Source: Cyanobium sp. C1_MAG_00004
Lineage (GTDB): Bacteria > Cyanobacteriota > Cyanobacteriia > PCC-6307 > Cyanobiaceae
DNA: 41,687 nt
Direction: 5' to 3'
Assembly (NCBI GenBank): GCA_027486935.1
Contig: JAIXOF010000142.1
Span: 1-41,687 of the forward strand
Position 1 is the first letter of the stretch, and every line of letters starts with the position of its first letter. The notes beneath the pieces were generated by a model. It searched no databases. It was not told the DNA's origin and saw only the letters and a list, made by a program, of their open reading frames with translations. A program made the position numbers and the translations under genes. This document shows, piece by piece, positions 3,992-37,429 of the stretch.

Positions 3992-5383
3992 TTACGGAAA
4001 GTTCGCCGCATCGAGCAGACAGGTAGCCACCAGATCGTCTGCTCCTTGCACAACCGTCACCGGAACGGGCAACCGCTGCTGCAGCTCGGCCAGGGTCAGA
4101 TCATCGAGAAACACCGGTTCCCCCTGGCGCAGCATCACTGCTGGCAACAGCAGTCGCTCGCCCAGATCACGCCCGGCCAGACCGGTCAGCAGATCGCTGC
4201 CGGTCAGCAGGCCGGTGACCACCTGCTCCTGGCCCCAGTAGGGACTGGGTAGCGGATGCAGCACCAGCTCGAGGCCCCCGACGGCGTTGAGCCGTTCCAC
4301 GGCCGGCGCCAGCGCCTCGCCGACCAGCTGGCCGACGACCCAGCTCAATCGCCGCGGCGGCGACACCCGCTGCGGCAAGCCGGCCGTCGCCTGATCCAGC
4401 GCCTCGAGAAAAGCGCGAATGCTGCCGACGCCGTTTTCCTGCTGGGGCAGATCCTCGTAGGCGAGGCGTGGGGGCAGGGGCAGCCCGGCGATCAGGTACC
4501 ACTCGTCGGACAGCCAGGCGAAACGGCTGCCGAACCGCTGCTGAAACTGCTGCTGCAACGGTTCCACCTGGGCGATCACCGCCCGGGCCGCGTCGGGGTC
4601 CACCGGCACCAGGCCATCGCCCGCAGGGCGGAATCGGGTCAGGCCGACCGGCACCACAGCAGCAGACAGCACCGCTGGCCAGTCGCCGCCGGCGAAGCGG
4701 GCCAGATCGGTCAAGGTGCGCTGCAGCGCAGGGCCATCGTTGAGTCCCGGGCAAACCACCACCTGGGCGTGGATCTGCAGATCGCGCTGGTCAAACCAGG
4801 TGAGCTGCTCGAGCAGCTGGCCGGCACGGGGATTGACCAGCAGTCGGCTGCGCAGCTCAGGCTCGGTGGCATGGACCGACACGTACAAAGGCGAGAGCCG
4901 CTGGGCCTCGATGCGCTGCCAGTCGGCCTCGCTGAGGTTGGTCAGGGTCAGATAGGAGCCATAGAGAAAGCTGAGCCGGTAGTCGTCGTCCTTGAGATAA
5001 AGGCTCTGGCGGCGACCGGGGGGCTGCTGATCGATGAAACAGAAGGGGCAGTGGTTGTTGCACTGCCTGAGGCCATCGAACAGAGCCTCGCTGAATCCCA
5101 GGCCGAGGCCGTCGTCGGCATCCTTCTCCAGCTCGACCACATGGCGCGTGCCATCGGGGTCTTCGACCTCGAGGGTGAGCTCCTCTTCGCAGCAGAGCAC
5201 CTGCAGATCAATCAGATCCCGGGGCCTGATGCCGTTGATGCTGATCAGCCGATCGCCGGGCTGAAAGCCCAGCTCCTCGCCGATCGAGCCGGGCTCGACG
5301 CTGGCCACCACCGCCGCATCGGGTTGACGCTGGGGCCCAGGCAACGCAGCTGCGGCAAGAGCCGTGGAGGGTTCATTCCACAC
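3992..5383 (-). CDS. PDZ-radical SAM protein, DUF512/TIGR03279 family
   Basis: A 463-residue protein conserved in cyanobacteria and annotated as a putative Fe-S oxidoreductase. Residues about 24-85 resemble a PDZ domain (VEPGSIGEELGFQPGDRLIS). A CxxxCxxC motif follows at C108, C112 and C115 (CNNHCPFC), the ligand set of a radical SAM [4Fe-4S] cluster, and then the DUF512 C-terminal region. The TIM-barrel motifs after the cluster (YLTLTNLSEADW, LYVSVHATEPELR) fit radical SAM enzymes. The TolC-like gene starts 14 nt downstream and uppP ends 58 nt upstream, all on one strand. The substrate is unknown. A PDZ domain on a radical SAM enzyme suggests that it binds a protein C-terminus. Confidence 0.85.
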   Translation of the reverse strand: MWNEPSTALAAAALPGPQRQPDAAVVASVEPGSIGEELGFQPGDRLISINGIRPRDLIDLQVLCCEEELTLEVEDPDGTRHVVELEKDADDGLGLGFSEALFDGLRQCNNHCPFCFIDQQPPGRRQSLYLKDDDYRLSFLYGSYLTLTNLSEADWQRIEAQRLSPLYVSVHATEPELRSRLLVNPRAGQLLEQLTWFDQRDLQIHAQVVVCPGLNDGPALQRTLTDLARFAGGDWPAVLSAAVVPVGLTRFRPAGDGLVPVDPDAARAVIAQVEPLQQQFQQRFGSRFAWLSDEWYLIAGLPLPPRLAYEDLPQQENGVGSIRAFLEALDQATAGLPQRVSPPRRLSWVVGQLVGEALAPAVERLNAVGGLELVLHPLPSPYWGQEQVVTGLLTGSDLLTGLAGRDLGERLLLPAVMLRQGEPVFLDDLTLAELQQRLPVPVTVVQGADDLVATCLLDAANFP

Positions 5384-35576: not shown

Positions 35577-35607
35577 GGGTCCTCACACAGATGGGGCGCG
35601 ATGCGCC
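35577..35607 (-). promoter_or_regulatory. Porin leader: hairpin plus Yfr1-type sRNA target
   Basis: Read on the minus strand, GGCGC-ATC-GCGCC (35607-35595) forms a short hairpin, followed by UGUGUGAGGA (35589-35580), then CCC and the ATG. The GAGGA is the Shine-Dalgarno. GUGUGAGGA pairs perfectly with UCCUCACAC, part of the conserved core of the sRNA Yfr1 (ACUCCUCACAC), which is known to block Som porin translation in Prochlorococcus. It also pairs over 10 nt with the loop at 35751-35760. Confidence 0.75.
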
Positions 35608-35664: not shown

Positions 35665-35692
35665 AAAAAACCCGGCTGGAGAACCAGCCGGG
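35665..35692 (-). terminator. Rho-independent terminator of the upstream porin
   Basis: On the minus strand a perfect 9-bp hairpin (arms CCCGGCTGG and CCAGCCGGG, 4-nt loop, 35692-35671) is followed by TTTTTT (35670-35665). It lies 97 nt after the stop of the porin at 35789 and separates the two porin genes, so each is likely to have its own promoter. Confidence 0.95.
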
Positions 35693-35788
35693 GAACCTGA
35701 GGATTGAGGTGTGAAAAGTGTGAATCAGAACTGATCGAGGAGGGCCCCAGTGTGTGAGGAAGGGGCCCAGGTTCAGCTCTGTAACTGA
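35665..35788 (-). ncRNA. Candidate 3'-UTR-derived regulatory RNA of the porin
   Basis: The 3' UTR between the porin stop and its terminator holds a hairpin with a 7-bp GC stem (GGGCCCC at 35768-35762, GGGGCCC at 35748-35742) and a 13-nt loop, UUCCUCACACACU. The loop contains UCCUCACACA, the exact complement of UGUGUGAGGA in the ribosome-binding site of both porins, and resembles the Yfr1 core. The hairpin followed by a strong terminator is the shape of a 3'-UTR sRNA. The pairing is seen in the sequence; processing and function are inferred. The inverted copy may alternatively be a relic of a leader duplication. Confidence 0.5.
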
Positions 35789-37396: not shown

Positions 37397-37429
37397 GGGT
37401 CCTCACACAGAGAGTGGGCGCAATGCGCC
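37397..37429 (-). promoter_or_regulatory. Porin leader: hairpin plus Yfr1-type sRNA target (upstream copy)
   Basis: On the minus strand, GGCGC-ATT-GCGCC (37429-37417) forms a hairpin, followed a few bases later by UGUGUGAGGA (37409-37400), CCC and the ATG at 37396. Hairpin arms, target 10-mer and spacing to the ATG match the leader of the other porin, although the loop base and spacer bases differ, which suggests selection on these two elements. Confidence 0.75.

Follow-up and report, generated by a model that had tools for sequence, protein, structure and literature searches.

In a 41,687-nucleotide stretch of DNA from Cyanobium sp. C1_MAG_00004 (contig JAIXOF010000142.1; hereafter the window), two related porin genes lie in tandem on the minus strand, and the 3' untranslated region (3' UTR) of one of them, porin 1, contains a hairpin whose loop is complementary to the ribosome-binding sites of both. 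Our analysis of these sequences suggests that many porin messages of freshwater-type picocyanobacteria carry a brake of their own, similar in design to the free small RNAs (sRNAs) Yfr1 and Yfr10. In the reading that we consider probable, judging from sequence and modeled folding, the porin 3' UTR contains a Yfr10-like anti-Shine-Dalgarno (anti-SD) element that represses porin translation, either in cis or after processing to a small RNA.

The hairpin reads GGGCCCC-UUCCUCACACACU-GGGGCCC on the minus strand. An initial annotation of the window had described here a seven-base-pair GC hairpin with a 13-nucleotide loop, an exact 10-nucleotide complementarity of this loop to both porin Shine-Dalgarno (SD) sites, and a Rho-independent terminator about 50 nucleotides beyond; we found all three in the sequence, and the hairpin also in the predicted RNA fold (Table 1). 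The loop is unpaired in the predicted ensemble and would cost only 0.01 kcal/mol to open. The fold of the whole porin 1 tail has a z-score of -5.8 relative to shuffled sequences, none of 200 being as good. A promoter scan of the locus found no sigma-70-like promoter near the hairpin. The two porins themselves are 74% identical over their best stretch.

Table 1. Features of the porin locus, in window coordinates.
Feature	Position	Strand	Remarks
Porin 1, SLH + OprB-family, 535 aa	35789..37396	-	3' UTR contains the hairpin
Porin 2, SLH + OprB-family paralogue, 590 aa	33804..35576	-	Own tail lacks such a hairpin
Hairpin in porin 1 3' UTR	35742..35768	-	7-bp GC stem, 35768-35762 with 35748-35742; from sequence and RNA fold
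Hairpin loop, 13 nt	35761-35749	-	From sequence and RNA fold
Anti-SD/Yfr1-like loop core UCCUCACACA	35751..35760	-	Exact reverse complement of both porin leaders (35760-35751 against 35589-35580 and 37409-37400)
Longer imperfect lower stem enclosing the hairpin	35726..35781	-	35781-35773 with 35734-35726; predicted, minimum-free-energy and centroid folds
Rho-independent terminator of porin 1	35665..35692	-	9-bp stem (35692-35671), then T run
Target 1, UGUGUGAGGA covering the SD of porin 1	37400..37409	-	Directly before ATG; exact complement of the loop
Target 2, UGUGUGAGGA covering the SD of porin 2	35580..35589	-	Directly before ATG; exact complement of the loop

The element recurs in the porin tails of relatives. 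From 54 related loci collected by protein search, we took the tails after each porin stop codon, and found CCTCACA in 26 of 74 non-redundant tails (0.89 expected from shuffles), 22 times inside a stem (0.115 expected). Motif and hairpin together are carried by 38 of 98 porin tails. In a location control that counted CCTCACAC inside a stem with a score of at least 7 across the 54 loci, including 725 kb outside porin tails, 21 instances fell in annotated porin tails and one elsewhere. This single outside instance (L096, motif at 4981) follows a porin that the open reading frame parser had not registered, the protein match ending at 4954. A covariance model (R1) run on 151 genomes of the family gave best matches that were mostly porin tails, including new stems in other genera; the hairpin in the window matched at 37.7 bits, as its genome's only match at E <= 0.5. 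When the model was run on 291 genomes of the class, the few matches beyond the family were weak and never in porin tails, and we rejected these chance-like matches (L156-L160) as true elements.

Could the complementarity be a coincidence? A motif scan of the window allowing up to one mismatch returned 4 matches where 2.1 were expected, which is weak evidence and the one statistic that leaves room for chance. The exact 10-mer TCCTCACACA, however, occurs four times in the 2.98-Mb genome, three of them at this locus (reversed control, 1), and no 10-nucleotide match between tail and own leader arose in 200 shuffles of the tail. Among relatives, 27 of 55 tails contain at least eight contiguous nucleotides complementary to their own leader, compared with 1 of 55 in a reversed-target control. 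This rarity, the match to the own leader, the excess of stem-borne motifs over shuffles and the element's reappearance in porin tails across many genera refute a chance match, to which we give next to no weight.

The stems covary while the loop stays constant. Across 38 hairpins with 27 distinct stems, 97% of the six loop-proximal pairs are standard within a hairpin's own arms, compared with 43% for arms exchanged between hairpins; an earlier hairpin set gave 96.5% and 52.5%. Since the hairpins were selected by motif and stem, the own-arm percentages are inflated, and the swapped-arm, location and reversed-target controls therefore weigh more. MAFFT misplaces stems with differing loop offsets, so covariation was counted also on stem-anchored arms. 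In a model-based alignment, which includes weak non-porin matches, 52 cells had changed on both sides compared with 22 in shuffles, the covariation score was 0.465 compared with 0.200 for shuffles (0 of 500 as high), and the structure outperformed slid versions of itself. The loop core CCUCACAC is near-invariant across the 38 porin tails; variants such as CCUCGCAC, UCUCACAC and CUUCACAC keep pairing with the leader sequence GUGUGAGG through G-U wobble, which is weak support because the search admitted only wobble-compatible single changes. These patterns bear on the idea that the stem serves only mRNA stability or 3'-end definition, its loop sequence being a by-product or a protein site. Hairpins without the motif do occupy the same place in L044, L047 and L048, but a loop that is near-constant over freely changing stems and matches its own leader makes this idea very improbable. 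The proposal that the loop mimics the Yfr1 core, also made in the initial annotation, is supported to this extent: the loop is conserved, is antisense to porin leaders in the manner of Yfr1, and is tied to porin tails and held on covarying stems.

On the target side, GTGTGAGG is kept in nearly all porin leaders of the 54 loci, and in the own genome GUGUGAGG ahead of the ATG of a long frame is confined to porins, which favors porins as the targets. The same confinement, together with the putative status of any short transcript, speaks against the hairpin being a processed, trans-acting Yfr10-type sRNA whose main targets are non-porin genes of the wider Yfr1 regulon. We consider this improbable even though the architecture is Yfr10-like, Yfr10 has targets of its own in MED4 (PMC6778093), and the covariance model also matches, in a small Prochlorococcus-like genome, a hairpin immediately preceding a Yfr2-like sequence (L148, G106:C10:20219-20259). 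The L148 hairpin has the same loop on a different stem, with terminator-like sequence, and is possibly an unannotated Yfr10. The porin leaders have a further conserved feature just upstream of the SD, a GGCGCATTGCGCC-like hairpin (37417-37429 and 35595-35607 on the minus strand of the window); leaders of other porin paralogues have UUCCUC in its place, a potential pairing partner of the SD itself.

The own genome encodes Yfr1 on contig C222, containing ACUCCUCACAC, and one Yfr2 (Cyano-1) on contig C237, containing GUGUGAGGAG. Porin leader and Yfr2 are alike in sense, and Yfr1 and the porin tail loop have the opposite sense. Because the tail loop shares the sense of Yfr1, it cannot pair with the Yfr1 motif, while competition for the leader or pairing with Yfr2 is possible. 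The initial suggestion of a sponge competing with Yfr1 thus stands only as competition for the leader; a sponge for Yfr1 itself would need complementarity to Yfr1, and we rejected it. In Prochlorococcus, Yfr1 reduces the output of a PMM1121 porin leader reporter about 4.7-fold and Yfr2 restores it (PMC6778093). With the loop fully open, the loop-leader duplex is predicted at -15.8 to -17.2 kcal/mol; a crude comparison that ignores loop strain puts loop-leader pairing at -17.2 and Yfr1-leader pairing at -15.7 kcal/mol, with a similarly crude predicted opening cost of nil for the tail loop and 3.4 kcal/mol for Yfr1.

In a rival reading, the hairpin binds Yfr2: the porin mRNA would either soak up Yfr2 as a sponge or be under Yfr2 control itself, and Yfr1 would be released for repression. 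The Yfr2 of this genome has the matching sequence, the predicted loop-Yfr2 duplex (-17.6 kcal/mol) is on par with loop-leader pairing, and Yfr2 is known to bind Yfr1 and Yfr10 in Prochlorococcus (PMC6778093). Yfr1-Yfr2 pairing is nonetheless predicted to be far stronger (-25.5), and confinement to porin tails suits self-targeting better, as a general Yfr2 sponge could occupy any tail. We regard Yfr2 binding as possible but unlikely.

In the model of a porin-directed anti-SD element, the hairpin loop would present the Yfr1 motif (U)CCUCACAC(A) in open form, with the terminator behind it, and the motif would pair with GUGUGAGG over the ribosome-binding sites of the own and the paralogous porin mRNAs, blocking translation. 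We infer that the message would be transcribed to this terminator and the duplex would form in the cell. Pairing could take place inside one full-length mRNA, between two of them, or through a short terminator-bearing RNA released by cleavage. The element would work alongside Yfr1, as a feedback brake whose strength follows the amount of porin mRNA.

Several observations weigh against this model. L044/L099, the nearest orthologue within the genus, is identical in its leader core and has no such loop, and many further porins share the leader without the hairpin; the element is in this sense dispensable. For the initial annotation, which had proposed conservation in close relatives as a check, the outcome is divided, since the loop is missing from this orthologue and widely conserved in other genera. 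The A that follows the loop core is conserved in 31 of 38 hairpins, but only certain genomes, such as that of the window, offer it a pairing partner in the leader, so leader pairing accounts for just part of the conservation. Leader cores are almost constant among relatives, leaving compensatory change between loop and leader without variation to assess. Leader structure would need to be opened at a predicted 5.5-8.2 kcal/mol, and a 10-bp duplex in a 13-nucleotide loop may be sterically strained. Interaction prediction, another proposed check, was favorable for the loop-leader duplex but not for whole tails, where gapped full-length leader-tail energies were no better for real tails than for shuffles (mean z -0.08); GC-rich terminator stems dominate these duplexes, and the contiguous-complement test replaced this one, whose negative outcome still counts. 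Finally, the case is built entirely from sequence and predicted folding.

On the porin tree, the hairpin is clustered, with 11 changes compared with 27.6 in shuffles (83 rows). It sits on unrelated stems in two deep regions of the tree, in 20 of 21 members of one porin clade and patchily in the other; a porin clade with the leader GUGUGAGGU also lacks it. The two clades with unrelated stems, together with its absence from the paralogue and from L044/L099, indicate that the hairpin has been repeatedly gained or lost, and the data do not separate gain from loss.

The survey also turned up related arrangements. In some porin tails (L066, L051, L052 and L091), UCCUCAC(A) occurs a second time, between hairpin and terminator. 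A second type of tail, common to several porin paralogues (L090, L053, L051, L063, L071 and, in the own genome, L041 on contig C116), has no long stem and is ordered as CACUCCUCAC or similar, in some tails a small GCG-CUCCU-CGC-like hairpin, and then CUCACACACC and the terminator; it too looks like a Yfr1-type anti-SD. L137 and L141 (G150 and G083) have a near-identical hairpin, GGGCCGCACUCCUCACACCGCGGCCC, directly ahead of a similar reading frame (MAGFSVFFCDAQRCSIQP...), and G083 has one more match with an equal score; an anti-SD-like leader element or chance are both possible. One record with Synechococcus-like porins (L087) is titled as a Bifidobacterium breve metagenome-assembled genome (CALPNT020000072.1), a bin that seems mislabeled or contaminated.

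The porin tail shares the core of the Yfr1 motif with Yfr10 and the other sRNAs that contain this motif (Yfr18, Yfr12, Syr5 and Yfr104), which are little conserved beyond the motif, and it presents this core in a loop atop a stem, as Yfr10 does with the motif (PMC6778093, PMC2518516). Those sRNAs, however, are separate genes, in Prochlorococcus MED4 located beside Yfr2 family members, whereas the present element is part of a porin 3' UTR and lacks the leading AC of ACUCCUCACAC: the loop contains the core CCUCACAC, but the full 11-mer is absent from the window, which reads UUCCUCACACA. Yfr1 itself (RF01116) has an antisense core and a type of porin-leader target in common with the tail, and is encoded elsewhere in this genome. 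The Rfam model RF01116 gave no match at gathering score in the window and none among weak matches of the tail. Because of this, because Yfr2 is on another contig rather than alongside as in high-light Prochlorococcus, and because any transcript is putative, we did not file the element as a Yfr10 member.

Autoregulatory 3' UTRs offer the functional parallel. In Staphylococcus aureus icaR, an anti-SD UCCCC in the 3' UTR pairs with the ribosome-binding site of its own mRNA (PMC7821165), much as 10 nucleotides of the porin 3' UTR, predicted to be accessible, are complementary to the ribosome-binding site of their own message; the icaR motif is missing in S. epidermidis. OppZ and CarZ of Vibrio cholerae derive from 3' UTRs and regulate their own operon (PMC9438474, PMC7821165), as proposed for the porin tail. 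Pairing and RNase III cleavage for icaR, RNase E processing for OppZ and CarZ, and Hfq dependence for OppZ are established by experiment, whereas pairing and processing are putative for the porin tail. ApcZ of Synechocystis (PMC9438474) shows that in cyanobacteria, too, the 3' end of an mRNA can give rise to an sRNA, as the porin tail might, but ApcZ differs in having its own promoter and in acting on another gene (in photoprotection) rather than its parent. By analogy, the porin tail resembles icaR and OppZ/CarZ in function and Yfr10 and Yfr1 in sequence. Each kind is already known, and the new aspect is their combination, a Yfr1/Yfr10-motif RNA joined to 3' UTR autoregulation of the icaR or OppZ/CarZ type; we found no report of a Yfr1 motif in porin 3' UTRs in the open literature, subscription papers lying outside the search.

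To our knowledge, 3' UTR autoregulation has been documented for few bacterial genes. The recurrence of the same loop across tails of a porin family, on covarying stems, provides a natural series of variants. We give roughly even chances to the broader proposal that a picocyanobacterial family has porin-specific, Yfr1/Yfr10-like 3'-tail regulators that were repeatedly gained or lost, take hairpin and possibly linear forms, repress their own and paralogous messages, and are tied into the Yfr1-Yfr2 network. If true, porins of a family already subject to Yfr1-type targeting would have a dose-dependent brake, and mRNA tails would be linked to the Yfr1/Yfr2/Yfr10 network.
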